Shown: one piece after another, positions 24,338-42,222 of the stretch
How positions within the stretch are numbered: the stretch's first letter is position 1
Layout: each line of letters opens with the position of its first letter
Source: Desulfobulbaceae bacterium
GTDB taxonomy: Bacteria > Desulfobacterota > Desulfobulbia > Desulfobulbales > Desulfobulbaceae
Assembly (NCBI GenBank): GCA_015489765.1
Contig: WFZC01000054.1
Location: 1 to 42,222 of the forward strand
Length of the DNA stretch: 42,222 nt
Direction of reading: 5' to 3'
Notes under the pieces: model-generated
The model's input: the letters and a program-made list of their open reading frames with translations, nothing else
What the model was told of the DNA's origin: nothing
Databases searched by the model: none
Program-made: the position numbers and the translations under genes

Positions 24338-24364
24338 TGTATCGATATGACCTGGACTTTCCCA

Positions 24365-24937: not shown

Positions 24938-24940
24938 TGG

Positions 24941-24970: not shown

Positions 24971-25115
24971 TTTGTTGGTTTATTTCGTTTTTTCGGCCCG
25001 TTGCTGTTCGGTGTGCCAGCCGCTTGGCTCAGAGTATCGGTTTGTCGTTTTTAGGGTACTGACAAATATTGTCAGCCGATCCTCCTGTTCTGTCATTTTT
25101 TGTCAATGTGGTGGA

Positions 25116-25547: not shown

Positions 25548-25594
25548 CTCTTCCTCCCGGAATCGTTTCTGCTGGTCGTATTTCGGTTCAGTTA

Positions 25595-25611
25595 TGCAGT
25601 AATAATGCCAT
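25595..25611 (-). promoter_or_regulatory. Sigma-54 promoter of pilin copy 2
   Basis: The minus strand reads ATGGCATTATTACTGCA, with the invariant GG and GC 12 bases apart; the -24 element is good (TGGCAT) and the -12 element fair (CTGCA). The predicted start is about 37 bases before the pilin ATG. The divergent kinase gene begins 83 bases away on the other strand. Confidence 0.72.
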
Positions 25612-25693
25612 AAAAAAACTGTGTTGCAAGGGACGGGTCGGGCTATACTGAGAATGATCCTTCTGGTTTCCGCATCAAGGAGATGGTCTCGCT

Positions 25694-27181
25694 GTGGGTG
25701 CTTCCGGACTCAAGCTGAAAATATTTATGACCTTGGTGGTCCTGCTTGCCGCCGGTATGCTGCTTGTCGATATGGTCGCCATGACCCTTTGGCGACGTGA
25801 CCTGGTCCTGAGAGAACGCCAGCATGTCAGGGCGCTGCTGACGGTTGCCTCGGCAGGGCGCGGGCGGATGCCCGTGGTGGCACGTTTTGTTGATGCCCGA
25901 TGCGGGGTATTTTTTGTGCCTGGAAACGGGGTGAAGGCATTGTCCGGTCTTGAACTGTGCCCCGGTGATCCTGTCCGGGTTGCAGCGCGGAGAGCCGCGA
26001 TCTCCGGACGTGATATATCCCGTGTGGTGGGGAAGGGGGGGCTGCCGTTCTTTCCCGACAGGCGGGGATTGATTGTCGCGGTTCCTGTCAGGGCGCACGG
26101 TCGGATTGCCGGGAGCATCGCGGTAATGATTCCCCTGGCGGCCATTTATTCTTCCATCAGGGGGTATGAACGTATCATCCTGGTGTCGCTGCTGGTCAAC
26201 CTGATTGTTCTCTCTGTGGTCGGACTGTTCCGTTTTCTTCGCTCAACTGTCCGTCCGATTGAAAATCTCGTCAGCCTGGCTGAGTCGTATTCCGAGGATG
26301 ATTCTCTTCCCTTTCTCATGCTCGATGGGGGGGACGAGTTCGGACAGCTTTCCGGCGCCCTGAATCGTATGCTGGGACGGATCGAGGACGACAAGGAAAA
26401 ACTGCGCGCCACGGTCCGTTCACTGGAGGAGGCAAATCGTGAACTCAGAAACACCCAGCAGGAGATGGTGCGGACGGAAAAACTCGCCTCCATCGGCCGG
26501 CTGGCCGCTGGCATGGCCCACGAGATCGGCAATCCCCTGGGTATTGTCCAGGGCTATATGGGGCTGCTGAAGATGAGGAACCTGTCCGTCGAAGAGCGTT
26601 TCGATTACGCCGGACGGGCGGAACAGGAGCTGCAGCGAGTCAATAGCCTGATCCGGCAGTTGCTGGATTTCTCCAGGGCTTCCACCGGCCAGCGACAGCA
26701 GGTCTCTCTTCATGAAATCCTGTCTTCCCTGGAAAGCATGGTCCGCCATCAGCCCTTTCTGGCCGGTGTGGAACTGATCTGTTCCTTTGGTGCTGTACAT
26801 GATACCGTATTGGCAAACCCGGATCAGCTCATGCAGGTTTTTCTGAACTGTCTCATGAACAGTGCAGATGCCATTGTCGCCGCAGGAAGAGAGGAGGGGA
26901 GAATCACGATCAGCACAAGGAGCGGTTCGCAACAGGGATCCGATGCCGCGGCAGACCAGATAGTGGTTTCGATCACTGACAATGGAGAAGGAATACGGGA
27001 GGAAGATCTTGCCAATGTGCTTGACCCGTTTTTCACCACCAAGGCCCCCGGCAAGGGAACGGGGCTAGGCCTGTCCGTGTCCCACTCGATTGTAACTGGT
27101 CATGGAGGCAGCATGGTAATCAGGAGTATATATACTAAGGAAACTACCATTGAGATACGACTGCCCCTCATGGGCAAATAA
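25694..27181 (+). CDS. Sensor histidine kinase, PilS/NtrB-like
   Basis: This 495-residue membrane kinase has an N-terminal helix (residues 8-30), a periplasmic sensing region of about 125 residues, a second helix (about 158-183), a HAMP-like linker and a coiled coil. HisKA follows ([15 protein letters not shown], with phospho-acceptor His276). The HATPase domain has the N box [15 protein letters not shown]1 [10 protein letters not shown] box DPFFTTK and G2 [12 protein letters not shown]. Start GTG 25694 follows AAGGAGA by about ten bases. It lies 69 bases before the sigma-54 regulator gene on the same strand and is divergent from the pilins, so it most likely controls pilin and pilus operon transcription as PilS does. 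The periplasmic signal is unknown. Confidence 0.9.
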
Positions 27182-27259
27182 TCACTTCCTGGCCGTTGAG
27201 AGTGGCAGGCCTTAGGAGTTGCGTGGTGTCTCTGACTATCTGACCTGCAGGTGAGAGCG

Positions 27260-28642
27260 ATGATGGAAGAGGAGAAAAAACGTGTCCTGGTCATCGATGA
27301 TGAGCAGAACATGCAACACATGTTGAGGGCGATCCTCTCCAGGTTTGATTACCTGGTCGAGACGGCCGATGATGGGCAACAGGGCCTGGACAGGCTGCGG
27401 GCCGGAAACCTTGACTTTGTTTTGTGCGACATTCGTATGCCGGTGATGGACGGTATGGAATTTCTGCGCAGGGCTGCAGCGCTGGAACATGGTGCCACCA
27501 TTATCATGATGTCTGCCTATGGTACCGTGGACAGTGCCATCGAGGCCATGAAACAGGGAGCCTACGATTATGTCTCCAAACCTTTCAAGGCGGAAGAGAT
27601 CCTGCTTGTTCTCAAAAAAGCAGAAGAGCGGGAGTTCCTGCAGCGGGAAAATGCAGCCTTGCGCCGGCAGTTGGCGGATATTGGCGGACCAGCCGGGTTC
27701 GGCCGTATGGTGGGTAAGAGTAAAAAGATGCAGGAAGTCTTTCAGCTTGCGACCAAGGTGGCCCAGCATGCGACAACAGTCCTGGTAACAGGTGAATCGG
27801 GAACCGGTAAAGAGCTTGTGGCCCGGGGAATTCATGACCTCAGTCCCAGGGCGGAAAATCCGTTTGTAGCCATCAATTGCGGAGGAATACCGGAAAATCT
27901 GCTGGAAAGTGAACTGTTCGGATACGTGAAAGGGGCTTTTACCGGGGCAGAAAAGAACAAGAAAGGACTGTTCGAAGAGGCTGATGGTGGCACTATCTTT
28001 CTTGACGAGATCGGGGAACTTCCCGTTGCGATGCAGGTGAAGCTGCTACGGGTGCTGCAGGAACAGGAAATCCGACCCGTGGGGGCTGCACGGAATAGAA
28101 AGATCGATGTCCGGGTGATTGCGGCCACAGCCCGTGACCTGGTGAAGGAAGTGAAGAAAGGTGGTTTTCGGGAGGACCTGTACTATCGCCTCAATGTCGT
28201 CAACATTCATATTCCGCCTTTGCGGGAACGAACAGAGGATATCGCGGTTCTGAGTACTCATTTTGCCGAGAAACTGGCCGGTCGGATGGATGTTGAGATC
28301 CTGGGTATTGCACCGGCAGCCATGCAACTCCTCATGGGGCATTCGTGGCCCGGCAATGTCCGTGAGCTGGAGAATGTCATTGAACGGGCTGTTATCCTGG
28401 CGGAAAAGAAGATTATTCTGCCGGAAAACCTGCCGCCTGAGTTCGGAACCAAGCGGCAGGCACGCCGACTTGATGATTTCTTTGCCGGATTTTCCATCAA
28501 GAAAGCACAGAAAATCATGGAAAAAAGTCTCATACGGCGTGCTCTTGACGCCACTGGCGGCAACAAGTCCAAGGCAGCGGAACTCCTGGAAATAAGCTAT
28601 CCCTCCCTTCTGGGAAAGATCAAGGAGTATGGACTTGGGTGA
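27260..28642 (+). CDS. Sigma-54-dependent response regulator, PilR/NtrC family
   Basis: This 460-residue protein has three domains. The receiver carries the acidic pair Asp13-Asp14, phospho-acceptor Asp57 in FVLCDIRMPVMDG and the KPF loop. The AAA+ domain has Walker A VTGESGTGKELVA, the sigma-54 contact loop GAFTGA, Walker B GGTIFLDEIGELP and the arginine-finger region. The Fis-type helix-turn-helix ends GGNKSKAAELLEISYPSLLG. It activates sigma-54 promoters after phosphorylation by its partner, here the kinase 78 bases upstream. Three sigma-54 promoters in the window (two pilins, minor pilin operon) are its likely targets. Start ATG 27260 or 27263 suits the AGGTGA site; GTG 27251 is an alternative. 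Confidence 0.93.
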   Translation: MMEEEKKRVLVIDDEQNMQHMLRAILSRFDYLVETADDGQQGLDRLRAGNLDFVLCDIRMPVMDGMEFLRRAAALEHGATIIMMSAYGTVDSAIEAMKQGAYDYVSKPFKAEEILLVLKKAEEREFLQRENAALRRQLADIGGPAGFGRMVGKSKKMQEVFQLATKVAQHATTVLVTGESGTGKELVARGIHDLSPRAENPFVAINCGGIPENLLESELFGYVKGAFTGAEKNKKGLFEEADGGTIFLDEIGELPVAMQVKLLRVLQEQEIRPVGAARNRKIDVRVIAATARDLVKEVKKGGFREDLYYRLNVVNIHIPPLRERTEDIAVLSTHFAEKLAGRMDVEILGIAPAAMQLLMGHSWPGNVRELENVIERAVILAEKKIILPENLPPEFGTKRQARRLDDFFAGFSIKKAQKIMEKSLIRRALDATGGNKSKAAELLEISYPSLLGKIKEYGLG

Positions 28643-28819
28643 GCACCATGTTGTCTGGAAAATATTTTGATATCCTGCTTTCTTTTTATAAAAAAAATTA
28701 ACATCTTTTCTTCGCGTCTTCCTCTGGCTGTTTCTGGTTTCCTTTTTTCTTCCTCTGTATCTTCTCGATATTCTTCATTATAAAAGCTTCATTCTTTTCA
28801 CGCTCTTTGTGGGCCGTCG

Positions 28820-28836
28820 TTGGCGTATTATTTGCT
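28820..28836 (+). promoter_or_regulatory. Sigma-54 promoter of the minor pilin/PilY1 operon
   Basis: TTGGCGTATTATTTGCT matches the -24/-12 consensus with GG (28822-28823) and GC (28834-28835) 12 bases apart. The predicted transcript starts near 28847, about 36 bases before the first pseudopilin start. It lies 180 bases after the regulator gene. Confidence 0.8.
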
Positions 28837-28882
28837 TTCTTGTCAGAAAGGATAATGGTTTTCCCTGATCAAGAGGATGCAA

Positions 28883-29443
28883 ATGGTTCGCAATCAACAT
28901 GGTATTACCTTGATGGAAGTGATGGTGACACTCGCCATTGTCGGAATTGTCGCAAGTATTGCTATGCCTGCCTACCTGTCCTGGAAACCGGGATACGTGT
29001 ATCGGGGGGCTGTCTCCCGTATCCGGGGTGACATCGACAATGCAAAAATGAAGGCCGTGGAGACCAGGAACCAGTGGCGTATCATGTTTTGCGGAAGCGG
29101 TTATCAGCTGATCGAGGGTGACAAACCCCGGAATTCCCGATGGACTGTGCCACCTGCATATACTGCCAATCCGTCGTGTCCGATGAGTGCAGCCGAAATA
29201 GCGGCTTTTCGGGCAGCCGGTCGCCGGGTAATCATTCGTGACCTGACAGATTTTCCCCAGGTCCTGCTCACGGCGGATTGTAATTCCCCGCCCACCGCCA
29301 TCGCTTCGGGCTCAGAGCCCTGGTTTACTTTTTTGCCCCGCGGCACGGCCACCTCCAGTGGCAGCGTGTCGGTTGCCATGAGTGGTCGTAACGATTGCAG
29401 TACGTTCACAATTTCAACTGCTGGCAGGATATTGATCCAATGA
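28883..29443 (+). CDS. FimT/GspH-family minor pseudopilin
   Basis: This 186-residue protein has a short leader MVRNQHG and the prepilin helix ITLMEVMVTLAIVGIVASIA (Glu5 present; first mature residue Ile instead of Phe). The soluble domain has the GspH/FimT layout, with NAKMKAVETRNQWRIMF after the helix and four cysteines, of which two pairs could form disulfides. FimT-like minor pilins prime or cap type IV pili and can bind DNA in some bacteria. ATG 28883 has AAGAGG six bases upstream; ATG 28877 directly abuts that site. First gene of the operon behind the sigma-54 promoter; its stop overlaps the next start. Confidence 0.88.
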   Translation: MVRNQHGITLMEVMVTLAIVGIVASIAMPAYLSWKPGYVYRGAVSRIRGDIDNAKMKAVETRNQWRIMFCGSGYQLIEGDKPRNSRWTVPPAYTANPSCPMSAAEIAAFRAAGRRVIIRDLTDFPQVLLTADCNSPPTAIASGSEPWFTFLPRGTATSSGSVSVAMSGRNDCSTFTISTAGRILIQ

Positions 29444-30183
29444 AAAGAATTGATTTCTCCCATTCCATGGCTGGCTTTACCCTGATTGAGGTGATGATCG
29501 CCATGGTCATCCTTGGTCTTGTCCTTACCGGTATTGTCAAGATGTTTTCCTCCACTGGTAAGTATCAGACAGCCCAGGAGATGATGGTCGACCTGACCCA
29601 GGATATGCGGGCTGCTAAACAGCTCATGACATACGAGATTCGTGAGGCCGGGTGCAATCCGCGGAGAAAGAAGAGGATTGGTTTCCAGATCAGTACCGAT
29701 GACAGTGCCGATACCGATGCCAACTCCATTCATTTTACCACGGACAGGGATAACGGCGATGGTGATGAGTTCCTTGAGCCCGACGGTGATGCCGATGATC
29801 CGGGCGAGGATATTGCGTTTTACAGGACTTTTGACAACTGTTTCGGCACGGTGGGGGCGGTGATGGCAGCCGGAGACAGACGACCCGGTTGTCTGCGATA
29901 CGCCCAGGGTGGATCGGGACAACCTGTTGCCGCCAATATTATCGATCTGCAATTCAATTATTATGACAGTAACAATAATCCGTTTTATCAGGAAAATGCG
30001 GATGGATCCCTGGTCACGCCTCTTGTTGCCCTTCAATCGCTTGGCAGTGAAACCAACCTGGACAGGATTCGCAGTGTCCAGGTCTTCATGATGGGACAGG
30101 TGGAGAACCCAAGCAGGGTAACAGGTTCAAATCAGACCTGGACTCAGCGATTCAGGATCCGTGTTCGTAATGCAGGAAAGTGA
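29440..30183 (+). CDS. pilW: PilW-like minor pilin
   Basis: This 247-residue protein has a 12-residue leader MKRIDFSHSMAG and the prepilin segment FTLIEVMIAMVILGLVLTGI. Length and soluble domain agree with PilW/GspJ-type minor pilins: MVDLTQDMRAAKQLMTYEIREAGC after the helix, and a C-terminal IRSVQVFMMGQVENP with an RFRIRVRN end typical of PilW. Between them a strongly acidic loop (DNGDGDEFLEPDGDADDPGED) could bind calcium. ATG 29440 gives an ATGA overlap with the preceding gene. Gene name based on family features and operon order; certainty moderate for the exact orthology. Confidence 0.82.
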   Translation: MKRIDFSHSMAGFTLIEVMIAMVILGLVLTGIVKMFSSTGKYQTAQEMMVDLTQDMRAAKQLMTYEIREAGCNPRRKKRIGFQISTDDSADTDANSIHFTTDRDNGDGDEFLEPDGDADDPGEDIAFYRTFDNCFGTVGAVMAAGDRRPGCLRYAQGGSGQPVAANIIDLQFNYYDSNNNPFYQENADGSLVTPLVALQSLGSETNLDRIRSVQVFMMGQVENPSRVTGSNQTWTQRFRIRVRNAGK

Positions 30184-30201
30184 GTTTCGGGTGAGGGCGA
30201 G

Positions 30202-30624
30202 ATGATGGAAATAACAAAAACAAGACGCTCAATGATGTTCGATGCCAAAGGATTCACCCTTATCGAGGTCATGATCGCCATGGTTATCCTGGGGATCGGG
30301 ATTCTGGCCGTTGTGGGGTTGCAGACCCGGAATATGAGCTACAACAGCAGTTCCAAGCGGCAGACCGAAGGATATACCTGGGCCATGGACCAGGTAGAGC
30401 GACTCCTCGCATTGCCATACACATCTGCCCAACTTTCGGTCCAGGGATCTCCAACGGTGGTGGGAGACGGTCACACGGTCACCCGCAGCCCCTATACAGT
30501 CGAGTGGGATGTGGCTGACAACAGCGCCAATATCCCGAATTCGAGAATCGTCAATGTCTTTGTGCGCTGGCAGGGACGCGAAGTAAGCAGGGTGGATTTC
30601 ACAAGGGTTCAGAGTTCGTTTTAA
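30202..30624 (+). CDS. pilV: PilV-like minor pilin
   Basis: This 140-residue protein has a 17-residue leader ending MMFDAKG and the prepilin helix FTLIEVMIAMVILGIGILAV. The phrase VVGLQTRNMSYNSSSKRQTEGYTWAMDQVERLLALPY is typical of PilV, where the helix is followed by a conserved stretch of small residues and a D-x-x-E/R-L-L core. It begins 18 bases after pilW. ATG 30202 and 30205 are both possible behind GAGGG; I report the first. It belongs to the minor pilin complex (FimT, PilV, PilW, PilX, PilY1) that initiates pilus assembly in the inner membrane. Confidence 0.85.
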   Translation: MMEITKTRRSMMFDAKGFTLIEVMIAMVILGIGILAVVGLQTRNMSYNSSSKRQTEGYTWAMDQVERLLALPYTSAQLSVQGSPTVVGDGHTVTRSPYTVEWDVADNSANIPNSRIVNVFVRWQGREVSRVDFTRVQSSF

Positions 30625-30638
30625 TGGGGCGAGAAACA

Positions 30639-31202
30639 ATGAACAGGCACGTGTTTATCAAGAAGTCCATGGTCGCAGCCGTGGACAATGAACAGGGGAC
30701 GGCCATAGTTGCCGCTTTGCTGATCCTTTTGCTGCTTACTTTTGTCGCTATTATGGCCACGGATACCACAACAACAGAAAAGGCCATTGTCCGCAGCGAC
30801 TCCGTGTTTGAACGGAATTTTTACCGTGCAGAGTCAGCCGCTCTCGAAGGCATTCAGAAACTGGCCAATGAAAGTTCTCCACAGGAGCTGTTGGCGCCAC
30901 TTATTACAACCGACGCCAATAACGCAAACCTGCTCCGTGCAGCAGACAGCCAGGATCCTGATAACGATGTGGCGAATCTTGACATCAGCGGCGACAGCGA
31001 AGTGGACAAGAACGATTTTCTGGAAACCTCACAGATCGACAGCGATAACAGTACCTACCGGGCTGTTGTCCAGAAACCGATCCAGAGCGGCAATTCTCTT
31101 GGTATGGAATCAAGCCGGCTCTACGATTATGTCGCCTATGGCTACTCAGAGGGCAACCGCGGAAGGGCCATGGTGAAAATCGGCTTTAAGAAGCGTTTTT
31201 GA
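30639..31202 (+). CDS. pilX: PilX-like minor pilin
   Basis: This 187-residue protein has an N-terminal stretch NEQGTAIVAALLILLLLTFV with an atypical pilin-like helix that lacks Glu5 in favour of Val/Ala, then IMATDTTTTEKAIVRSDSVF and ERNFYRAESAALEGIQKLA. These are hallmarks of the PilX N-terminal family (a helix with the R/T-x2-E and F-x-A-E-S/A signature). The C-terminal soluble domain is acidic. Start ATG 30639 is chosen; ATG 30624, which overlaps the pilV stop, is an alternative. It lies directly upstream of the PilY1-like gene, the conserved order in pilus operons, and PilX partners PilY1 in the tip complex. Confidence 0.83.
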   Translation: MNRHVFIKKSMVAAVDNEQGTAIVAALLILLLLTFVAIMATDTTTTEKAIVRSDSVFERNFYRAESAALEGIQKLANESSPQELLAPLITTDANNANLLRAADSQDPDNDVANLDISGDSEVDKNDFLETSQIDSDNSTYRAVVQKPIQSGNSLGMESSRLYDYVAYGYSEGNRGRAMVKIGFKKRF

Positions 31203-31267
31203 TAGCGTTGCGGCAAGGATATGAGATGCGATCTGAAAAAAGTTGGAAGGCGACCTGGGGAGCTACC

Positions 31268-34200
31268 ATGAAGCGGAATGAAACGATAATCTGTGCAGTG
31301 ACAAGGAGATGGTTTGCAGTATTGTTCGGGTTGCTGTTGCTTATTCCGTCAACGGGCTGGGCCACAACCTATTCTATTTCTGTGGATGATGTCTCCGGGG
31401 CCGAGGATACGGTCGGAACCATAACGTTCACGCTCAGCATAAGCCCGGCGGTCAAGACGGGTGATGCAGTGACCATCGAATATGCCACAGCCGATGGAAC
31501 CGCAACGGCGGACGGGGATTTTCAGGGAATCCCTTCCACAAGCATGACCTTTTTTCCAGGTGATGCCAGCAAAACGGTTTCAGTGACGATTGTTCCGGAT
31601 AGCGCTGTCGAGGGGGATGAAACCTTCACCCTTCAGCTTTCCAATCCTTCGGTTACACCCGCGGCCGGAAACAGCGTCGATCTCTTGACGTCGTCCGGCA
31701 CCGGCACCATCACCAACGATGATATGGCCACCCTTTCAGTTTCGTCCGCTGGAAGGGTTGCAGAGGATGGTGGCGTTTCCGTTTTTACCGTTTCATCCGG
31801 TGGCGTGGAAATCGAATCATCAGCCGCTGTCACTGTATCCTATACGACAAGCAGCGAAGCAGGGGATACCGCCACGGCAGGCAATGATTACCGGGCAACC
31901 ACAACAGGCAGTATCTTGTTCGTCGGCACGTCTGTCGAAATCGATGTTCCCTTGGTAAACGACAGCAACGTTGAAGGAGACGAAACCTTTACTCTGAGCC
32001 TCATCGGCAGTTCCAACTCCGATGTTACGGCCAGTGCCAGCGCCCAGGGAACAATCGCCGATGACAATGATTCCGCGACGTTGAGTATTGTCAGCGATGG
32101 TCCGCAGTCCGAGGATGCGGGTCCGTCGACCTTCACCCTTTCCTCCGACGCCCCGGTGGAGCCGTCGGCCAACCTGACGGTTTCCTACCGTTCAGCCAGC
32201 GAGAGCGGCGACACGGCGACAGCAGGAGATGACTACGTATCCACTGCCAGTGGCAGCATTCCGTTCGTGGGAACCAGTGGATTGATCAGTGTCACCCTCA
32301 ATAACGACAGCAGTGTGGAGGGTGACGAGACCTTCACGGTGACCCTGACCGGTGCGAGCGATGCCGATGTGGTGGCCAGTGCCAGCGCCCAGGCAACGAT
32401 CACCGATGACAATGATTCCGCGACGTTGAGTATTGTCAGCGATGGTCCGCAGTCCGAGGACGCGGGTCCGTCGACCTTCACCCTTTCCTCCGACGCCCCG
32501 GTAGAGCCGTCGGCCAATGTACAGGTTTTCTACACAGTGACCACCGAGGTGGGAGACACCGCCACTGCGGGCAGCGATTATGCGGATACCACTACCGGCA
32601 GCGTGACCTTCAGCGGCAGCTCTGGCACCATCAGTGTACCACTTGTCAATGACAGCAATGTTGAAGGAGATGAGACTTTTACCCTGCAACTAGCCGGTTC
32701 GACCCATCTCTATGTGACTGCGGCCGGAAGTGTGCAGGGTATCATTGTCGATGATGATACGGCATCACTTTCCATAGATGATGTCACTGCCACGGAAGGA
32801 GATGGTACGGTGCTTTTTACAGTGATCTCTGACCGGTATATCGAAGGCAGTGCAGCCGTTACCGTTGATTTCTCCAGCCAGGACGGAAAGGCTGTCGCCG
32901 GGGAGGATTACACCGCCACGACCGGAACACTATCCATCAGTGACGGTGACCGGATCACCTTGTCGGTTCCCATTCTCGAAGACAGTCCACCCATTGTCGA
33001 GGGTGACGAGACGTTCAGCGTTCTTCTGAGCAATACGAGCTCCAACGCGGTTATTGCTGACGGCACAGGGGTTGCCACGATCAGTGATAACGATGTACCT
33101 GACATCACTGTCAGCGATGTTGCTGCCACGGCAGAAGGTAATGGCACTGATACATCGGTTTCCTTTGTTGTGACCAGTTCACTGGATGTGGCAGCCAATA
33201 CGACCATCTCTATCGATTATTCCGTTTCCTCCCTGACCACGGAGCCGGATGATTTTTCAGGCGCCACCTCGGGGACAGTAACCATCAGCAACGGTTCTTC
33301 CGCCTCTCTTCCCCTCGCCTATGCAGCCGACCGGGTGGTGGAAACAGACGAAGAGTACACTGTTGAACTCAGCAATCCTCGCATCTCGTCCAGTTCCGTC
33401 ATTCCCATCCTTGTCGATGCATCAGGAAGTGGTGTTATTCAAAATGATGACAGCCCGCAGTTATCCATCGGCGATGTTTCCAGGTCCGAGGGCGACAGTG
33501 GCACCACCACCATGACCTTCACTGTCACCAGTGATCTTCAGGTAGCCTCGGATGCCGATGTGAATCTTGATTACGTGGTTAACGCAGTTGATACGGAGTC
33601 AGGGGATCTGAGCGGTACCCTGACCGGATCAGTGACCCTGAACAGCGGCAATACGGCACAGATCGAGGTGGACGTGGCCGGCGACACCACTGTCGAGACC
33701 GACGAGACCTATACCGTCGATATCAGTAATGCCACCATCCCCTCCAGTACCGCCGGCGCATCGATTGTCGACAGTTCCGGCCTCGGAACCATCATCAACG
33801 ATGACAGTTTCACCGTGAGCATCGATTCCACCCTCAAATCGGCCCTCGAAGACATGGGGCCTCTTGTCTGGACCGTCACCCTGAGCAATCCCGTGGAATG
33901 GCAGGTCGATGTGCCGTACACCTTCAACGATGCCTCTTCGGATTCCGCCCTCGAGGGTTCCGACTATACGGATGCGGCCTCTTCTCCCCTGGTCTTTGCC
34001 CCTGGAACGACTAGCCGGGATATCACGATAAACCTGGTCAACGATACGGTCATCGAGCCGGACGAGACCTTTACTATCACGCTGGGCCCGCCCAGCCCGG
34101 CCACCGCCGGTTCCCTCGGTACCAGCGTGGGAACAGGCGAGATTCTCAACGATGAACATCTGATTACCATGAGCGCGGGTGGTCCCCAGGGCACTCTGTC

Positions 34201-37200
34201 CACCTCGTACGGTGGCGGTGTTTCCATATCCGACGGCACAACCACTGTCCAGGTGGATCATGATGCAACCCCTGCCTTCGATGTGACCATGACAGACGCC
34301 TGCTACTACATCGACGATCTCTCCGTCGATGGTGTTTCCCTGGGAGGCATTTCCAGTTATACCTTTGATCCTGTGACCACCGATCACAGCATCAACGTGG
34401 AATTTGCTGTCTATACCTATACCATCACTGCCACTGTGCTCGGTTCCCATGGGACACTTACTCCTTCGCAGACGGTCACTTGCGGGACCGGCGGTTATGC
34501 CTACGTCGCCCAGGCCCAGCCCGGCTATCATATCTCGTGGTTGAAGGTCAACGGCGTGGATATATCGGCTGCTGCCGGGCAGGAGAGTTATACCTATACC
34601 TTCGGGTTCGTTACCGAAAATCAGACCATAGAGGTGGCCTATACCCAGTTGATCACCGTAACAGAAGACTCGCCTTTTGGCGATATAACGCCTGCCGGCG
34701 GCAAGGTGCCCATCGAGGTGGATTACGGTGATGATCTGACATTCGATATAACCGCGGCCGCCTCGTGTCCCAATGGTCTTGGCCACGACGGCCAGGTGCA
34801 CCATATTTCCGATGTTATTGTGGATGGCACATCTGTTGCCGGCGTAAAAGGCAGCGGATTGACCACCTATAGCTACACCTTCACCAATATTACCTCCGAT
34901 CATACTATCGAGGCCCTGTTCACCGCATATATCGACTTGACTGTGAACGGCAACGGCACGACGGATCCGCTGGCAGTCACAACGACAGGTTCGCTGGAGG
35001 TGGATGCCCATGACAGCCCGACCATCACCGCTGTCCCTGATTCCGGTTTTCACGTATCAGCAGTCGAAGTGGATGGTGCACCGGTGGGACAGCCTGAGAG
35101 CTACACATTTACCGACATGTATGATGAAGATCATACCTATGAGGTGTGGTTCAGTATCGACACTTTTACCCTGAAACCGGTTTCCAGGTTCGGGACCATC
35201 TATGAAACTGCAGCCCAGGCAGTGGAGGCAACGGAGCGGGAAGTCTCCTACCACGACACCAGTTCCTTTTATGTGGACCTTGATGATCCCGATCACGCGG
35301 TGATGGGAATCCTGGTTGACAACATCTCCTATCCGGTTCCTGCCTCGGGAGATACGGCCACCTATCCGGCTTTCACCCTTGTCAACAATGCAGACGATTA
35401 TCTTGAGGTCAGGTTCACCAACGTCGAGGTCGGGCATCGGCTTGAGGTTCAGGACTATGATACAAGTCCCATCTCCGATGTTCCACTTGATGCCAGGTTG
35501 CGCCCGAAACCGGCGTCCCTGATGTTTGTGCTCGATGATTCGGGCAGTATGGACTGGGAATTCATTGTACCGGGCAATGGGCTGTTCAACGGGAGATATT
35601 ACGTCTACAGCTATCCCTCCGTAGATGCAGCACGGGTGTATTCAAACAACAGCCTTCAGGCCAATGGAGAACAGGATGAGTGGCGGTCCCAGTGGGCCGG
35701 GATCAACAAGATGTTTTATAATCCGGATGTGGAGTATGTTCCCTGGCCGACGTTCACAGGGACGCCCAGCTCAAACCTGCCGGCTCCGGACAGTTCCATT
35801 GCCGGCCAGTCCGACGGGCTTGCCCATGCAAATATCTACCGGCCCCGGTATCACCCGTGGCACAGCCAGGACTGTACCGAGGCGTTGAACAAGGCTCTCG
35901 GCACGACGCCGGACAACCTAGCTTCCTGCAACAACAATGAAACCTTTGATATGGACGGGTCTTTTCTCTCGCTGGGCGGGACAACGGATGACCATGGTGA
36001 TACCACGGGCACGGCCACACCGGTGAGTCTGAACAACAGCTTTACAGCATCGATTGAGACGGCCGGTGACCATGACTTGTTCAGGATCGAACTCACCGGT
36101 TCCGGCGATCTGCTGGTCAGGACCCTTCGCACTTCCCAATGTACGGATACCGAGGCCAGGGTTCTCGATTCGGCCGGCAATACCTACAGGTATTCCGAGT
36201 ATGGCCCGTTCAACCAGTATCTGGACAATCCCTATGCCGATGACTGCGGATGGGCCGGTCACTGCGATCTGAGCTGCGGGCGGGACCAGGATCCTTACAT
36301 CTACCTGACCAACGTACCTGCCGGAACCTACTATATCGATATCCGCGGTTACGGAAACCGCACGGGAACGTATGTTCTGGATCTGGCATTCACCGGAACC
36401 AGCACCACGTATCCGACCCCGCCCCCTCCCTCGAGAGGAATCATCAATGCCCATTATTTCACCTGGGAGGATGTTAATGGCAATGGTGTCATCGATTACG
36501 TGGACAGCAACGGCAATGGTCAACTGGATATCAACGAGACCATCAACGAGTCGATATGGCTGGTCAACCTGACCGATCCCATAGAGTACTACAGGGTTCT
36601 TGATAACAGCCAGAATGTGAGCGCAGGAAACCTGCAGCAGGTTTCCGCAGCCTCGGTGCCGGCAACGGTCAAGACCTTTGCCTCTCCGACTGATCCGGAC
36701 GCCTGGCGTAAGGAACGGCAGAACTGGGCCGACTGGTTCTCTTACTATCGCAAAAGAACCTACTCCGCTACCGCCGCCGTGGCCAGGGTCATCGACCGGA
36801 TGGAGGACATCGAGGTCGGCTACCGGACCATCAACTATTGGGGTGGTGGTTATGAGAATGGCGGCTATGGCTTCAGTCAGCCCGTGTTGCCGGTCAATGT
36901 CTCTGGTGTTGGTGATCAGACCAATCGGTTGCTCGAAATTCTGTATGCCTTCCAAATTGACGCCTACGGAACACCGCTGCGAAACGGCCTGAATGCCGTG
37001 GGCCAGTATTTCGATGATACCGATGGTGCGGATGGTGGTATAGGTGTCTCTCCCTTCCATGCCCGTGAGGACGGCGACGAGTGCAAGCAGGTGTTCACCA
37101 TCGCCATGACCGATGGTTACTGGAACGGCGGCAGCCCGGCTGTCGGTAACAGGGACGGGGACAATGGCGAACCGTATGCCGACTCCTGGAGCAATACCTT

Positions 37201-40200
37201 GGCTGATGTTGCCATGAAGTATTTTGAAAACGATCTCTCAACGCTGGATGACCTGGTCCCTGACGGCACCAATACCCATCAGCACATGGTGACGTACACT
37301 GTGGCCTTCGGCGTTTACGGGACATTGAACCCGGAAGACTATGATCTGAATAATAACATCTATCCCACCTGGCCCGACCCGACGTCCAGCGCACCTGCCC
37401 ATGTCGATGACCTGTGGCATGCTGCTGTCAATGGACATGGCAAGTACATGAATGCGGCCCGGCCGGACGAACTTGTCGCCTCGTTGACGGCTATCATGAC
37501 CGATATCGGCAGCCGCATCGGTTCGGGAGCCTCGGTTTCTGTGAACGGCGATGAGATGTACGAGAACGTCAATGGTCAGATCCGCATGTTCCAGACCACC
37601 TATAACTCTGGCGACTGGCACGGTGATCTGAAGGCGTACCAGCTGAACACGGTCACCGGCGAGGTCCTTACCAACAGTCCGGTCTGGTCGGCAGAGGAGC
37701 AGTTGCGCAGTCTTTTGGCCGACAGCGGCCATGATGCCCGGATCATCGCCACCTATGACGGTTCCAATGGCGTGCCCTTCCGCTGGCAGGACAGCTCCGG
37801 GAATCCATATCTGGCAACATGGCAGCAGAAAATGCTGCAACCCTATTACAGCCAGTCATTGACCGCAGAAGACATGGTGAACTATCTCCGTGGCGATGCC
37901 AGCAATGAAGGAAGTTTCAGGGATCGCGATGCGCAGCATCCGCTGGGTGATTTCGTTCATTCCCTGGCCCGTTTTGAAGATGGCTTCCTCTATGTGGGAG
38001 GAAATGACGGCATGCTGCATGCATTCTGGGCCATTGATTCGGAAGACCTGGATTCCGATGGTGTTCTTGATGCGGGCGTGGAGGACATCGACGGTGACGG
38101 TCATTTTGACACTGTCTACGAGGACCTGGATGGTGACTGTCACCTGGATACGTACAATGAAGATGTCGATGGCGATGGCAAGCTCGACGCCAACGAGGAT
38201 CTCGACGGCGATGGTATCCTCGATATACCGGAAGACCTTGACGGCGACGGCCACCTGGATACCGTAGCCGAGGATCAGGACGGTGACGGCCGGCTCGATA
38301 CCATTGACGAGGACGTCGATGGTGACGGTCGCCTGGATATGGCCGACGAGGACGTGGACGGAGACGGAAAACTCGATCTGGTCAACGAGGATCTCGACGG
38401 CGACGGCCGCCTGGATACGGTGAACGAAGATCTCAATGATAATGGGAGCCTGGACCCCGGAGAGGACCTTGACGGCGACGGTCACCTGGATACGGTGAAC
38501 GAAGATCTTGACAATGACGGCCATCTCGATGTCAACGAGGATCTCGACGGCGACGGCCATCTCGATATCAACGAGGATCTCGACGGCGACGGCCATCTCG
38601 ATGTCAACGAGGATCTCGACGGCGACGGCCACCTTGACGTCAACGAGGACGTGGATGGAGACGGAGTCCTGAACACGGTCAATGAGGACGTTGACGGCGA
38701 TGGTGTGCTCGATATTGACGAGGATCTCGATGGCGACAATCATCTCGATGTCTCCGAGGACCTCGACCATGACGGCCATCTCGACGTGGGTGAGGATGTC
38801 AACTGTAATGGCCTCCTCGACAGCGGAGAGGATGTTGATATGGACGGCATGCTGGACCTCACCGAGGACCTTGATAATGACACCAATTTTGATACGGTCT
38901 CAGAAGACCTGGATAACAACGGTGTTATCTCGACTGGAGGCGAGGAGAGGTTTGCCTACGTGCCCGGCCTGGTCTTTCAGAATCTGCGTGAGCTTGGTGA
39001 TCCGCTCTATGACCACAGGTTCTACGTGGACAATACCCCCTATACCAAGAAGGTCGGTGATACCACCCTCCTGGTCGGTGGCCTCGGCAAGGGCGGCAAG
39101 GGATACTACTGCCTCGATATCACGGATGCCGCCTCCATCAGCAGTGAGACGGAACTTGCCTCACGGGTTCTGTGGGAATACCCCGCTCCTCCCGCCACCC
39201 TGGCTTCCGGATCGACCTTTACGTTTTCCAGTGGCACCGGGACCGGCGGCAATGACGAAATCAAGGACAGCGCCAATCAGTTTGATTCAACCCACGGTTT
39301 TGAGGTGGGTAAGTGGATCACGATCATCGGTGCCAATTACAATGATGGCAGCAACAGCGGCAGCAATGACGGCACCTATCGGATCAAGGCTATCCCGGAT
39401 GCAGGCACCATCGAGCTGGAGGCCGGCAGCCTGATCGATGGTTACGGTGACGGCGAGGATATTACCATTACCGCAGCGACCAGTGACCGGGATATGGGCT
39501 ACTCATTCAGCAAGGCCTATATTGTCCAGACATACGACTCCTCCATCAATGCCGGCACGGATTTCGAGGGGTATGTGGTCATCTTTGGCAACGGATATTC
39601 CAGTGAAAATGGCAATGCGGTTCTCTACATACTCAACCCACTTGATGGTAGCCTGATCAAGAAGATCAAGACCCGGGTCGGGCCGTTCAATGGCCTGTCA
39701 ACCCCCAAGGTCATTGATATGAACAACGATCTGAAGGCTGACTATGTGTATGCCGGTGACCTGCTGGGTAACATGTGGAAGTTCGATCTCACCAGCAGCG
39801 ATCATGCTGACTGGCAGGTTGCCTTCTGTGACAATGCCAGCGCAACTGATCACTGCAGAGATACCGATGACCTGGATGACATCGATGATCCAGTGCCCAC
39901 GATTACGCCGCAGCCACTGTTCGGTGGCCTGGCGAACCAGGCAATTACCGGCGCCCCGGATGTCATGTTCCACGGTAACGGTCCTGGATACATGGTTATC
40001 TTCGGTACCGGCAAGTACCTGGGGGAACCCGATCTCACCAATTTCGAGGTACAGTCGCTTTATGGAATATGGGACTGGGCTCCGGACAACACCGATGATG
40101 GTTATAACGGTGTCCGGGTGGATACGGTGACAACTCCCTCCGTGGCCACTCTCTCCAACTGGCCGGAAACCGATACCAGCGGCGGGCAGGCAACCCATAC

Positions 40201-41095
40201 CCTGCTGAAACAGGTCATCTGGGTCGAGGGTGCGATAACCGAGGATACGGATGGAGACAATAACCTGGATGTCAACGAGGATCATAACAACAACGGTATA
40301 CTCGATGTTGGCGAGGATATAGACGGCGACGGGCACCTCGATGTGGAAGAGGATTCCAACGGGAATGGAGAGATCGATGTCTATTCTTACTACCGTATCC
40401 CGTCGAACTATGGAGGAAACTGGGAAACCGTCGCCACCAAGGATCTGCCTCCAAGCCACCATCTGTACAACAGGGATCTCAATGGTGACGGGTATGTCAA
40501 TTCCCTGGACAAGGTGCCGGCAGCCAATGTGGGATGGTACTTTGATCTGCCCGGAAAGATCGACCTGGACGGAGACGGACAGGACAATGACAAGGACGGT
40601 CTTGTTGACGAAGATGATGACGGAGATGGTGTCATTGACGAGCGCATGCCGGGAGAACGGGTGGTCAACGATACTATTATCCGCGATGGCAAGGCGATCA
40701 TGATCTCCTTCGGTGTCACCGGCACCCGTTGTAATGCCGGTGCCTACTCCTTTGTCAATGAACGTGATCCGGATACCGGCGGTATGCTGGGCCGGCCTGC
40801 CTTTGATGTTGACGAAGATGGCGAGGTTAACGGCAATGACTCCTATTATGTAAGGGTTGATGAAGATGTCGATGGAGACGGAGACATTGACGAAAACGAT
40901 GTCATCCGTGGAAATCCGACTGACAAGGCCTATGAGGGACGGCTCTATAACCCCGCTATTCTGCGCGAGAATCAGCAGTCAGGAGACGATAAGCCGGAAG
41001 AGACCAAGTACTTCAGCTCCTCGGGCGGAACCATTGAGACCCTGACCGAAGAGGCGGAGCGACGTGGTGTCTACTTTTGGCAGCAGGTGGAGTAG
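31268..41095 (+). CDS. pilY1: Giant PilY1-like adhesin with Calx-beta, vWA and calcium-repeat arrays
   Basis: This protein of about 3,275 residues is roughly three times usual PilY1 length. ATG 31268, with GGGGAG five bases before, gives a clean signal peptide (cleavage near Ala32). Next come eight Calx-beta repeats (about residues 35-966) with the VEGDETFT signature, then repeated small beta domains with SYTF/DHTIE phrases (about 966-1410). The von Willebrand A region begins with MIDAS FVLDDSGSMDW (Asp1423); a pre-peptidase-C-like domain (about 1573-1711) sits inside it, and two DxNxNG sites follow that domain. The PilY1 propeller begins with ENVNGQIRMFQTTYNSGDWH and is interrupted by a 24-unit acidic repeat (residues 2259-2558), resuming at ERFAYVPGLVFQNL. 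DMNNDLKADYVYAGD is the conserved PilY1 calcium site. PilY1 sits at the pilus tip and mediates assembly, adhesion and surface sensing. Confidence 0.9.
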   Translation: MKRNETIICAVTRRWFAVLFGLLLLIPSTGWATTYSISVDDVSGAEDTVGTITFTLSISPAVKTGDAVTIEYATADGTATADGDFQGIPSTSMTFFPGDASKTVSVTIVPDSAVEGDETFTLQLSNPSVTPAAGNSVDLLTSSGTGTITNDDMATLSVSSAGRVAEDGGVSVFTVSSGGVEIESSAAVTVSYTTSSEAGDTATAGNDYRATTTGSILFVGTSVEIDVPLVNDSNVEGDETFTLSLIGSSNSDVTASASAQGTIADDNDSATLSIVSDGPQSEDAGPSTFTLSSDAPVEPSANLTVSYRSASESGDTATAGDDYVSTASGSIPFVGTSGLISVTLNNDSSVEGDETFTVTLTGASDADVVASASAQATITDDNDSATLSIVSDGPQSEDAGPSTFTLSSDAPVEPSANVQVFYTVTTEVGDTATAGSDYADTTTGSVTFSGSSGTISVPLVNDSNVEGDETFTLQLAGSTHLYVTAAGSVQGIIVDDDTASLSIDDVTATEGDGTVLFTVISDRYIEGSAAVTVDFSSQDGKAVAGEDYTATTGTLSISDGDRITLSVPILEDSPPIVEGDETFSVLLSNTSSNAVIADGTGVATISDNDVPDITVSDVAATAEGNGTDTSVSFVVTSSLDVAANTTISIDYSVSSLTTEPDDFSGATSGTVTISNGSSASLPLAYAADRVVETDEEYTVELSNPRISSSSVIPILVDASGSGVIQNDDSPQLSIGDVSRSEGDSGTTTMTFTVTSDLQVASDADVNLDYVVNAVDTESGDLSGTLTGSVTLNSGNTAQIEVDVAGDTTVETDETYTVDISNATIPSSTAGASIVDSSGLGTIINDDSFTVSIDSTLKSALEDMGPLVWTVTLSNPVEWQVDVPYTFNDASSDSALEGSDYTDAASSPLVFAPGTTSRDITINLVNDTVIEPDETFTITLGPPSPATAGSLGTSVGTGEILNDEHLITMSAGGPQGTLSTSYGGGVSISDGTTTVQVDHDATPAFDVTMTDACYYIDDLSVDGVSLGGISSYTFDPVTTDHSINVEFAVYTYTITATVLGSHGTLTPSQTVTCGTGGYAYVAQAQPGYHISWLKVNGVDISAAAGQESYTYTFGFVTENQTIEVAYTQLITVTEDSPFGDITPAGGKVPIEVDYGDDLTFDITAAASCPNGLGHDGQVHHISDVIVDGTSVAGVKGSGLTTYSYTFTNITSDHTIEALFTAYIDLTVNGNGTTDPLAVTTTGSLEVDAHDSPTITAVPDSGFHVSAVEVDGAPVGQPESYTFTDMYDEDHTYEVWFSIDTFTLKPVSRFGTIYETAAQAVEATEREVSYHDTSSFYVDLDDPDHAVMGILVDNISYPVPASGDTATYPAFTLVNNADDYLEVRFTNVEVGHRLEVQDYDTSPISDVPLDARLRPKPASLMFVLDDSGSMDWEFIVPGNGLFNGRYYVYSYPSVDAARVYSNNSLQANGEQDEWRSQWAGINKMFYNPDVEYVPWPTFTGTPSSNLPAPDSSIAGQSDGLAHANIYRPRYHPWHSQDCTEALNKALGTTPDNLASCNNNETFDMDGSFLSLGGTTDDHGDTTGTATPVSLNNSFTASIETAGDHDLFRIELTGSGDLLVRTLRTSQCTDTEARVLDSAGNTYRYSEYGPFNQYLDNPYADDCGWAGHCDLSCGRDQDPYIYLTNVPAGTYYIDIRGYGNRTGTYVLDLAFTGTSTTYPTPPPPSRGIINAHYFTWEDVNGNGVIDYVDSNGNGQLDINETINESIWLVNLTDPIEYYRVLDNSQNVSAGNLQQVSAASVPATVKTFASPTDPDAWRKERQNWADWFSYYRKRTYSATAAVARVIDRMEDIEVGYRTINYWGGGYENGGYGFSQPVLPVNVSGVGDQTNRLLEILYAFQIDAYGTPLRNGLNAVGQYFDDTDGADGGIGVSPFHAREDGDECKQVFTIAMTDGYWNGGSPAVGNRDGDNGEPYADSWSNTLADVAMKYFENDLSTLDDLVPDGTNTHQHMVTYTVAFGVYGTLNPEDYDLNNNIYPTWPDPTSSAPAHVDDLWHAAVNGHGKYMNAARPDELVASLTAIMTDIGSRIGSGASVSVNGDEMYENVNGQIRMFQTTYNSGDWHGDLKAYQLNTVTGEVLTNSPVWSAEEQLRSLLADSGHDARIIATYDGSNGVPFRWQDSSGNPYLATWQQKMLQPYYSQSLTAEDMVNYLRGDASNEGSFRDRDAQHPLGDFVHSLARFEDGFLYVGGNDGMLHAFWAIDSEDLDSDGVLDAGVEDIDGDGHFDTVYEDLDGDCHLDTYNEDVDGDGKLDANEDLDGDGILDIPEDLDGDGHLDTVAEDQDGDGRLDTIDEDVDGDGRLDMADEDVDGDGKLDLVNEDLDGDGRLDTVNEDLNDNGSLDPGEDLDGDGHLDTVNEDLDNDGHLDVNEDLDGDGHLDINEDLDGDGHLDVNEDLDGDGHLDVNEDVDGDGVLNTVNEDVDGDGVLDIDEDLDGDNHLDVSEDLDHDGHLDVGEDVNCNGLLDSGEDVDMDGMLDLTEDLDNDTNFDTVSEDLDNNGVISTGGEERFAYVPGLVFQNLRELGDPLYDHRFYVDNTPYTKKVGDTTLLVGGLGKGGKGYYCLDITDAASISSETELASRVLWEYPAPPATLASGSTFTFSSGTGTGGNDEIKDSANQFDSTHGFEVGKWITIIGANYNDGSNSGSNDGTYRIKAIPDAGTIELEAGSLIDGYGDGEDITITAATSDRDMGYSFSKAYIVQTYDSSINAGTDFEGYVVIFGNGYSSENGNAVLYILNPLDGSLIKKIKTRVGPFNGLSTPKVIDMNNDLKADYVYAGDLLGNMWKFDLTSSDHADWQVAFCDNASATDHCRDTDDLDDIDDPVPTITPQPLFGGLANQAITGAPDVMFHGNGPGYMVIFGTGKYLGEPDLTNFEVQSLYGIWDWAPDNTDDGYNGVRVDTVTTPSVATLSNWPETDTSGGQATHTLLKQVIWVEGAITEDTDGDNNLDVNEDHNNNGILDVGEDIDGDGHLDVEEDSNGNGEIDVYSYYRIPSNYGGNWETVATKDLPPSHHLYNRDLNGDGYVNSLDKVPAANVGWYFDLPGKIDLDGDGQDNDKDGLVDEDDDGDGVIDERMPGERVVNDTIIRDGKAIMISFGVTGTRCNAGAYSFVNERDPDTGGMLGRPAFDVDEDGEVNGNDSYYVRVDEDVDGDGDIDENDVIRGNPTDKAYEGRLYNPAILRENQQSGDDKPEETKYFSSSGGTIETLTEEAERRGVYFWQQVE
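32058..32517 (+). repeat. Near-identical direct repeat spanning Calx-beta repeats 3 and 4
   Basis: The 115 bases at 32058-32172 recur at 32403-32517 with about two mismatches, an offset of 345 bases (115 codons). They encode the shared segment SATLSIVSDGPQSEDAGPST and the following strand. Such high nucleotide identity points to a recent in-frame duplication of one Calx-beta unit, while the other six units have diverged. Confidence 0.85.
38042..38941 (+). repeat. 24 in-frame tandem repeats of 36-39 bp (acidic DxDxDG repeats)
   Basis: Exactly 900 bases encode 24 units, 12 of 12 residues and 12 of 13 residues, with consensus E-D-L-D-G-D-G-H-L-D-(V/T)-(N/VN). Each unit has the D-x-D-x-D-G-x-x-D spacing of EF-hand-like, dockerin or thrombospondin type 3 calcium loops. 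Units 13-16 (about 38506-38651) are nearly identical at the nucleotide level, a sign of recent expansion. The array splits the PilY1 propeller between GNDGMLHAFW and ERFAYVPG. There are no unrelated spacers, so this is not a CRISPR array. Confidence 0.95.
40242..40385 (+). repeat. Second, four-unit acidic calcium-type repeat in PilY1-like gene
   Basis: Four 12-residue units of the same type as the main array follow one another (EDTDGDNNLDVN, EDHNNNGILDVG, EDIDGDGHLDVE, EDSNGNGEIDVY). They lie about 1.3 kb downstream, inserted at another position of the C-terminal domain. Further single DxDxDG sites occur around 40480-40650 and 40800-40890. Confidence 0.85.
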
Positions 41096-41105
41096 GGCTG
41101 TGTCC

Positions 41106-41169
41106 GGATCCGGCCCGCCAGGCAGATATGCTTTTTTTCCAGGAGCCTGTCTGCCGGGGAGCCGGATCC
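41106..41169 (+). other. Imperfect inverted repeat downstream of the PilY1-like gene
   Basis: GGATCCGGC (41106-41114) pairs with GCCGGATCC (41161-41169), and inside it GGCAGA (41121-41126) pairs with TCTGCC (41150-41155). The resulting long hairpin, with a T-rich loop, lies between the PilY1-like stop and the next gene. It could act as an mRNA processing or stability element or reduce read-through. Confidence 0.5.
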
Positions 41170-41226
41170 TGGCCTGCTGCGGACAGGCCGGCAAATGTAT
41201 CGTCCAAGAACATGAGAGGTTTTTTT

Positions 41227-41637
41227 ATGAAGAGATACGCATCGTTTTCTATCCTGATCCTTGCAGCGGTGATAACCATTGCCTGGCAGGGGCTCTTGCC
41301 GCAAAGCGGTTATGGCAGGGACGCGGGAGGAACACATCCCGTCCTGATGAAGGGCTGGATAGATCAGGTGGGGACGGGGACCCTGGTTATCGATGATATG
41401 CCCTACCGTGGCACTTCAGAAACCCGGTATTTTGACGGCAACGGCAAGGAAAGCGGGCCCTCCATTCTCCGGGTTGGCCAGTTCGTTGGTTTTCTGGCTG
41501 AAAACAGTGTGTTGACCGAAGTCCATGTCCTCAAGCCGGGTGAAGAGGATATGCGACCGGAGGTGAAGGCACCTTCCCGGTCCAATCCGGGGGAGAATTC
41601 GCAGATAATCCTTGAAGACGGAGTCTGGCGGAATTGA
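41227..41637 (+). CDS. Small secreted hypothetical protein downstream of PilY1-like gene
   Basis: This 136-residue protein starts at ATG 41227 with GAGAGG about six bases before. Residues 1-30 form a signal peptide (MKRYASFSILILAAVITIAW, then a GLLPQSGYG region). The mature part reads HPVLMKGWIDQVGTGTLVID, DMPYRGTSETRYFDGNGKES and ILRVGQFVGFLAENSVLTEV, a small beta-barrel-like (OB/DUF5666-type) pattern in which V-x-G-x-I-x-x-V and T-L-x-I-D strands alternate. The C-terminal 25 residues are polar. It follows the PilY1-like gene by 131 bases, with a long hairpin between, and may be part of the same operon. It may assist the pilus tip protein, but this is inference from position; function unknown. 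Confidence 0.72.
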   Translation: MKRYASFSILILAAVITIAWQGLLPQSGYGRDAGGTHPVLMKGWIDQVGTGTLVIDDMPYRGTSETRYFDGNGKESGPSILRVGQFVGFLAENSVLTEVHVLKPGEEDMRPEVKAPSRSNPGENSQIILEDGVWRN

Positions 41638-41972
41638 GAAAGAGTGGCAGGTCCCGGGAGTCGCCGCCTCAACGCCTCCAGTTCCTGTATTTCGCCACCA
41701 GGGATTGCCAGGGAACCTGTGTCTCCATGGCCTACGGGTTGTATCTCCCGGGCCCGCTGCGTACTGATACCCACCGGCTCACCCAATCCCCTGTTGTGAA
41801 ATTGAGCCGTAATCCCGGATTGTTCCCTGTCCGGTTATGCGGGTGGAAGATGATCCCGCATAACCGGACATCTTTGCGGCGTCCTGCCGTTCAGGCCCTG
41901 CAGCATCCCCTTTCTTCCCTCTATTTATGAAATTTATGGTTATCTTCGATCGGGCAGATGAGGTTTTTTTCC
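41638..41972. other. Intergenic stretch between pilus operon and sat promoter
   Basis: No credible gene is visible. A 98-codon frame at 41634-41930 has low-complexity shadow composition and overlaps a perfect hairpin. The only structured element is the hairpin at 41828-41870. Confidence 0.5.
41828..41870 (+). terminator. Perfect 16-bp hairpin, probable transcription terminator
   Basis: TGTCCGGTTATGCGGG (41828-41843) and CCCGCATAACCGGACA (41855-41870) are exactly complementary around an 11-base loop. No T tract of more than three follows on either strand, so termination might be incomplete or of another kind. It lies after the pilus operon and before sat. Confidence 0.6.
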
Positions 41973-42002
41973 TTGACTTCTCGCAGTACGGGTCTATATA
42001 TA
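41973..42002 (+). promoter_or_regulatory. Sigma-70-like promoter of sat
   Basis: TTGACT (41973-41978) and TATATA (41995-42000, or 41997-42002) are 16-18 bases apart. A start near 42008 would give a leader of about 130 bases before the sat ATG. Confidence 0.5.
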
Positions 42003-42046
42003 TTACTGTTTTTTTCTGAATACCGATTCAGTTCTTTTGGCTGTCG

Positions 42047-42087
42047 GTAAGGCGTAGCCGGGCAACGGGAATCCCGCCGGACTTTAC
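42047..42087 (+). promoter_or_regulatory. Structured leader element upstream of sat
   Basis: Nested complementarity is visible: GTAA (42047-42050) with TTAC (42084-42087), CCGG (42058-42061) with CCGG (42077-42080), and CGGG (42066-42069) with CCCG (42073-42076) around an AAT loop. It lies 53 bases before the sat start. I recognise no known riboswitch class in it; a regulatory role is a hypothesis. Confidence 0.35.
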
Positions 42088-42139
42088 GTATGTAGGTTAT
42101 CTCTTTATTTCGGTAATTTAACACAAGAGAGGGAAAGTT

Positions 42140-42222
42140 ATGGCAAAGTTGGTTGAACCGCATGGTGGTAAAGGTCTTGTCTGTGCCCTGCTGCACGGTA
42201 GTGAGCTGGAGGCAGAGAAGGA
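42140..42222 (+). CDS. sat: ATP sulfurylase (sulfate adenylyltransferase), 5' part
   Basis: The first 27 codons, beginning MAKLVEPHGGKGLVCALLHG, match the N-terminus of the dissimilatory-type Sat of sulfate reducers (family pattern M-x-K-L-V-x-P-H-G-G-K-G-L). The gene runs off the window. GAGAGGGA lies about five bases before ATG 42140. Sat activates sulfate to APS with ATP in dissimilatory sulfate reduction, or works in reverse during sulfur oxidation or disproportionation. In this window it also bears on sulfation, because APS is the precursor of PAPS for the sulfotransferase and sulfite (from APS reduction) is a likely sulfur source for SqdB. Confidence 0.85.
   Translation, partial: MAKLVEPHGGKGLVCALLHGSELEAEK

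Follow-up and report, generated by a model that had tools for sequence, protein, structure and literature searches.

A 24-unit array of EF-hand-type loops in a PilY1-type protein, the longest found among the EF-loop arrays of Desulfobacterota PilY1

The pilY1 locus and its source contig

The window, by which we mean the whole stretch of 42,222 nucleotides analysed here, comes from a bacterium related to sulfate reducers and carries on its forward strand a long ORF for a PilY1-type tip protein (Table 1). In-frame ATG codons lie at 31226 and 31268, the second of them followed by a signal-peptide-like stretch. The product matches the Pfam models for Calx-beta (2.7e-64) and T4P_PilY1 (PF05567; 2.8e-35, 122 bits against a cut-off of 28), and a phmmer comparison with the Pseudomonas aeruginosa PilY1 sequence 3HX6 gives 6e-37; by both the family model and 3HX6, a PilY1 beta-propeller makes up its C terminus. 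The ORF is also encoded with minor pilins, as befits a PilY1 family member, the four prepilin-like genes being GspH/FimT-like, PilW-like, a prepilin with an N-methylation motif and PilX-like. A kinase, a sigma-54 regulator and minor-pilin genes upstream are the usual setting of pilY1.

Within the propeller, the counterpart of the P. aeruginosa regulatory calcium site, DMNNDLKAD, keeps the acidic positions and has Leu in place of Gly-6, and is similar in orthologues. Additional DxDxDG motifs occur elsewhere in the 3298-residue protein, including a 4-unit array that is shared with orthologues lacking the 24-unit array described below. Two further loops (DVNGNGVIDYVDSNGNGQLDINE) lie upstream of the propeller at window positions 36470-36538, where several array-less orthologues also have motifs.

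The window contig was binned in one genus (g1), and its nearest PilY1 relatives are found in another (g5). DNA of the same population is present in two other MAGs labelled as different species, G004 (contig C449, 100% identical) and G030 (contig C150, 99.6% identical). The shared DNA spans 19258-31150 and 32126-42222 of the window, and the contig breaks lie close to the Calx-beta repeats (32029-32676). Given the mismatch of genus and the occurrence of the same population in G030 and G004, the name of the window organism is uncertain. An element of about 153 bp at 14008-14160 is an interspersed repeat: G030 has more than 25 copies of it, 80-88% identical, and the window's own genus has few. Its distribution suggests that the contig may have come from the other genus, and casts doubt on the binning.

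Table 1. Features of the pilY1 locus, in window coordinates
Feature	Position	Strand	Remarks
Histidine kinase and sigma-54 response regulator	25694..28642	+	PilS/PilR-like by position
Four minor-pilin-like genes	28877..31202	+	directly upstream of the pilY1 ORF
PilY1-type tip protein ORF	31199..41095	+	3298 aa; TTG start
Six N-terminal Calx-beta stretches	31400..34150	+	Pfam; limits approximate
Upstream flank GNDGMLHAFW	38000..38029	+	propeller strand; alignment places it immediately ahead of P. aeruginosa residue ~694
24-unit EF-loop array	38042..38944	+	consensus EDLDGDGHLDxxN; 12-13 aa per unit
Cys codon, unit 3	38138..38140	+	conserved in the 20-unit homologue
Units 14-16	38537..38644	+	89-97% DNA identity; most recent tandem copies
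Cys codon, unit 21	38804..38806	+	conserved in the 20-unit homologue (unit 17 there)
Downstream flank ERFAYVPG	38945..38968	+	alignment with 3HX6
DMNNDLKAD	39716..39742	+	alignment counterpart of P. aeruginosa PilY1 regulatory calcium site 851-859
Second EF-loop array, 4 units	40241..40381	+	other propeller loop; absent from the earlier note

An array of helix-less EF-hand-type loops

An earlier note on this DNA had described 900 in-frame bases encoding 24 units, and positions 38042-38941 are indeed 300 in-frame codons of a single ORF. Twelve units have 12 residues and 11 have 13, while the last runs into GGE up to 38944. Counted from its Asp, the 12-residue unit reads D-L-D-G-D-G-H-L-D-V-N-E, after which the next loop begins at once; in the 13-residue units the Glu is shifted one place later. 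The Glu, D1, an Asp or Asn at loop positions 3 and 5, and a Leu, Phe or Ile at position 8 are kept in all 24 units, D9 in 22 and G6 in 21, so that the per-position counts agree with the 12-residue EF-hand loop (ligands at 1, 3, 5, 9 and 12, with Gly at 6). The helices that flank such loops in EF-hands are absent, as the units abut with zero residues left between them and give no Pfam EF-hand match. By sequence, the units are canonical EF-hand calcium loops (D-x-D-G-D-G-x-L-D-x-x-E), devoid of helices. D1 is encoded by GAT in 12 units and by GAC in the other 12, and such mixed codons at constant positions imply that it is the amino acids, and not the DNA, that are conserved. The earlier note had also called the central units near-identical in DNA, which holds for units 14-16 and not for the other central units.

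A chance acidic stretch is ruled out by shuffling the array's own residues 2000 times: the motif occurs 24 times, as against a shuffled mean of 1.3 and a maximum of 7, and the strict phased motif, also observed 24 times, has a shuffled mean of 0.035. No Pfam family was found for the array, TSP_3 being absent at E up to 1, and a PDB sequence search with the array returned nothing significant, the best match being lanmodulin at E 0.011. The GC content of the array (0.568, GC3 0.654) is near that of the gene (0.555, GC3 0.640) and does not suggest a recently acquired foreign cassette. AlphaFold2 gave no usable model, with a mean pLDDT of 29 for the propeller with the array and 43 for eight units. 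The 305-residue insert holds 94 Asp and 25 Glu, for a total of 119 acidic residues, against five Lys and Arg; with such an imbalance, cations would be all but necessary for a compact array. Its only two cysteines are those of units 3 and 21.

Insertion site and its rarity

The blocks that flank the array were said in the earlier note to adjoin in ordinary PilY1, and this proved accurate: they are contiguous in 3HX6 (VYVGANDGMLHGF-DTDGNETFAFIPS), and in orthologues from the same and neighbouring genera they are 6-11 residues apart, about 9 as a rule (for example, GNDGMLHAFSATDANGGEELFAYVPG). The insertion maps to residues ~694-698 of 3HX6, the DTDGNE loop, by arithmetic from the calcium site and the RGD at 619-621. 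The alignment thus puts these DxDxDG loops, whose calcium binding is putative, in a propeller loop, the position that they occupy in calcium blades. Since the array leaves and re-enters the propeller at adjoining segments, it would have to fold back on itself. This makes the single rigid spine proposed in the earlier note unlikely, as the array would leave from, and come back to, one point between neighbouring blocks.

Occupation of this site is rare. A DNA pattern scan of 84,980 genomes, using DGMLHA, a short gap and two DxDxDG motifs, found it only in two relatives; the pattern required CTN leucine codons, so that some cases may escape it. We set aside two further hits of the pattern (L053 and L055), as they lay out of frame. 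With a looser pattern, the window genome, G022 and G030 were the only matches among 258 genomes of the class. A search of viral contigs found no relative, and on plasmids the similarity was confined to part of the acidic repeats and fell for the most part in hypothetical proteins. Close orthologues form a clade that lacks the array, which is presumably dispensable, therefore, for core PilY1 function.

A second species and selection on the array

Over 10.1 kb, contig DRKI01000150.1, from the MAG Desulfobulbus sp. HyVt-437 (G030), matches the window at 99.6% identity; all 24 units recur there, and the two arrays differ by a single substitution. Exact repeats within the array reach 44 bp at most, less than the length of an ordinary short read. 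In a second species, represented by a Desulfobulbaceae MAG of about 80% DNA identity (G022, JALSNC010000007.1), 20 units occupy the same site and are colinear with the window array unit by unit, the window having units 7, 8, 14 and 16 in addition. The two assemblies, the short exact repeats and the colinear second species rule out an assembly artefact. The variation in unit number anticipated in the earlier note is thus seen between species, 24 as against 20, and not between the two contigs of the same population, in which the number is equal. The cysteines fall in the third unit from the start and the fourth from the end in both proteins (3 and 21 of 24; 3 and 17 of 20). In a tree of the flanking sequences, both array species and the array-less G011 and G030b form one fully supported clade, the weak inner branches of which are compatible with one gain and one loss or with two gains.

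Omega for the 20 matched units is 0.046, close to the 0.045 of the propeller after the array. Synonymous sites between the window and G022 are saturated (pS 0.71), and pN is 0.02 at ligand and core positions (E, D1, D3, D5, G6, L8 and D9) versus 0.20 at the others. Ligand positions that are nearly unchanged when synonymous sites are saturated imply that selection keeps the loops, and the array is therefore held by strong purifying selection at its predicted ligand positions. Such constraint bears on two other accounts of the array. The first is a neutral spacer: replication slippage would have lengthened a loop that tolerates additions, in line with the change in copy number, the recent tandem copies among units 14-16 and the lack of the array in close orthologues. 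Nevertheless, the low dN/dS, with change concentrated outside the ligand positions, together with the repeated appearance of such loops at several places in PilY1 and their rarity elsewhere in the same genomes, makes neutral growth very improbable. The second account is a mineral- or surface-binding patch, an acidic, calcium-bridged array that ties the pilus tip to mineral or acidic polysaccharide, its conformation being of minor importance. The extreme acidity of the array would suit such a patch, as would its presence in HyVt-437, presumably of vent origin to judge from the name of the MAG. It would also accord with PilY1 being a tip adhesin (PMC8833165). A patch, however, needs neither the exact 12-residue spacing nor Gly-6 and Leu-8, yet selection keeps both, and we consider this account unlikely.

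EF-loop arrays in other PilY1 proteins

The earlier note described this one array. It does lie inserted in the propeller, but arrays of the same unit recur in other PilY1 loops across the phylum. A six-frame search with a profile of six-unit stretches (E 1e-5) matched 22 of 251 genomes of the class, and in 21 of the 22 the matching ORF is PilY1, as confirmed by Pfam for 15 (all at E <= 2.4e-5, nine of them over the curated cut-off) and as identified earlier for the other six. The lone exception is an array in an invasin-like Big_1 protein. When the search was carried over the phylum (395 genomes, E 1e-8), PilY1 carried the array in three of the four matching genomes outside the class, and in 24 of the 26 profile-matching genomes overall. 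As a control, 284 genomes of Myxococcota gave 11 matches, all short arrays, with PilY1 in none of the 11 (its signatures were absent). The association with PilY1 is therefore no product of the profile itself. In the genomes that carry them, EF-loop arrays are rare outside PilY1.

The arrays are found in several places in the protein. Before the RVIIYFD block of the first blade there are about 16 units in G106, about 11 in G013, seven in G004 and 3-5 in others; arrays before YYRIPS have four units and are common to orthologues without the 24-unit array; an array of five units precedes YFALDITDP in G224; and those of G243 and G064 stand before the LGDIIHS block. The G106 protein (L063/L106), with its about 16 units in a different loop and an additional 5-unit run in its N-terminal half, is an independent long array. 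The 24-unit array, the longest case found, is the extreme of a phylum-wide habit of PilY1 and not a one-off.

Some observations were made in passing. In three proteins (L122, L123 and L124, from G293, G407 and G516), a CxxCH motif, CANCHS, lies in the first blade just before the EF-loop array; it is possibly a c-type haem site in these PilY1 proteins, which come from elsewhere in the phylum. The Myxococcota matches L132-L143 include a recurrent 4-unit array (EDLNGNGVLDPGED...) at a constant place in a protein of about 1100 residues. In the same genome as the window, locus L045 (3-1775 of G000:C123) encodes a 591-residue protein, not PilY1, with DTDGDGxxD repeats at longer spacing, and the contig also has a TonB-dependent-receptor-like gene.

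The open literature that we searched describes calcium sites of PilY1, and Asp-rich variants of one site. We found no description of EF-loop arrays in PilY1 in this literature, the scope of which leaves out subscription papers and preprints, and the array habit of PilY1 in this phylum is apparently undescribed.

Proposed function

PilY1 is a calcium-controlled, force-bearing type IV pilus tip protein, the calcium chemistry of which has hitherto been treated in terms of one to three sites; the window lineage adds 24 predicted sites in a single loop, and its relatives in the phylum add shorter runs elsewhere. Calcium raises the mechanical stability of PilY1 (PMC11891296) and is needed for PilY1.1 stability and for pili in Myxococcus (PMC8833165), and calcium binding by DxDxDG loops is known from many unrelated folds (PMC3123361). 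We infer metal binding, a doubled-back shape, a disulfide and an adhesive or mechanical role from sequence, and the reading that we favour, with somewhat better than even confidence, is that the array forms a stiff appendage of the tip adhesin PilY1, two-limbed and loaded with calcium. With its D1, D3, D5, G6, D9 and E12, each 12-residue unit could bind a single divalent cation. Where calcium is plentiful in the water, the sites would fill, the repulsion among the about 119 acidic residues would be cancelled and the strand would stiffen. As the appendage would leave the propeller and return to the same place, it would have two limbs, perhaps stapled near their base by a disulfide that joins units 3 and 21; the two conserved cysteines fit the doubled-back shape, as far as two sequences and the geometry can indicate. 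Projecting from the adhesin at the pilus tip, the arm would stabilise or make contact, and gain and loss of units would set its length.

Marine calcium is about 10 mM, and the host of the array is presumably marine. At that level the sites would be kept occupied, which favours a structural role over sensing. The earlier note had offered a multi-site sensor as its other suggestion, an enlarged form of the single-site switch that would tune pilus extension and retraction; it takes support from P. aeruginosa PilY1, in which a single calcium site is reported to control both (PMC13190605, PMC11891296). With 24 near-identical sites that seawater should fill permanently, and with a place in the propeller other than that of the blade IV regulatory site, whose counterpart is still present, a sensor appears improbable. 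We give equally little credence to a calcium-driven folding aid, in which the array would stay unfolded in the envelope, fold on external calcium and so help the display of a huge protein. This follows an RTX-like logic, RTX repeats being acidic, folding with calcium and aiding type I secretion. Before its incorporation, periplasmic PilY1.1 is also stabilised by calcium (PMC8833165). The array, however, is internal and not C-terminal, and display presumably succeeds in orthologues that lack it.

Should these arrays stiffen or extend the tip, PilY1 would provide a natural series (0, 4, about 11, 20 and 24 units) for the effects of calcium and length on adhesion and mechanics. The array is, moreover, a clean example of a calcium motif that has multiplied within a folded domain with every copy still under selection. 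More tentatively, PilY1 of the Desulfobacterota may possess modular arrays of bare EF-loops, grown from different loops, as a lineage-specific, metal-stiffened appendage of adjustable length, of which the 24-unit arm would be a doubled-back, disulfide-stapled lever or contact probe, maybe using metals other than calcium. The Asp at EF-loop position 9 recalls lanmodulin.

Comparison with known systems

Among the closest known systems is PilY1/PilC of P. aeruginosa (PF05567, 3HX6), with which the window protein has the propeller and the minor-pilin operon in common, along with a counterpart of the blade IV calcium loop that lacks Gly-6; to these it adds the 24 calcium loops, the 4-unit array and six N-terminal Calx-beta domains. 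The unit itself resembles the 12-residue loop of EF-hands such as calmodulin and lanmodulin (D1, D3, D5, G6, L8, D9 and E12), but the array has no flanking helices, no helix-loop-helix pairing and no Pfam EF-hand match. Thrombospondin type 3 repeats likewise place helix-less DxDxDG loops in tandem within an extracellular protein. Their units are longer and use conserved cysteines, whereas the array has two Cys in 24 units and no Pfam TSP_3 match. Propeller calcium blades, as in integrin, PilY1 and YesW, carry the same motif, Dx[DN]xDG, at blade-tip loops (PMC3123361); the known cases are single loops, in contrast to the 24 that stand head to tail in one blade loop here. Finally, PERCAL motifs are short calcium motifs that occur in variable number in bacterial heme peroxidases, and a PERCAL peptide binds calcium (PMC3396595). 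Like the array, they are inserted in variable number within an unrelated domain, although both the host domain and the consensus differ, GxDGxx[GN][TN]xDD in PERCAL as against EDxDGDGxLDxx in the array unit.
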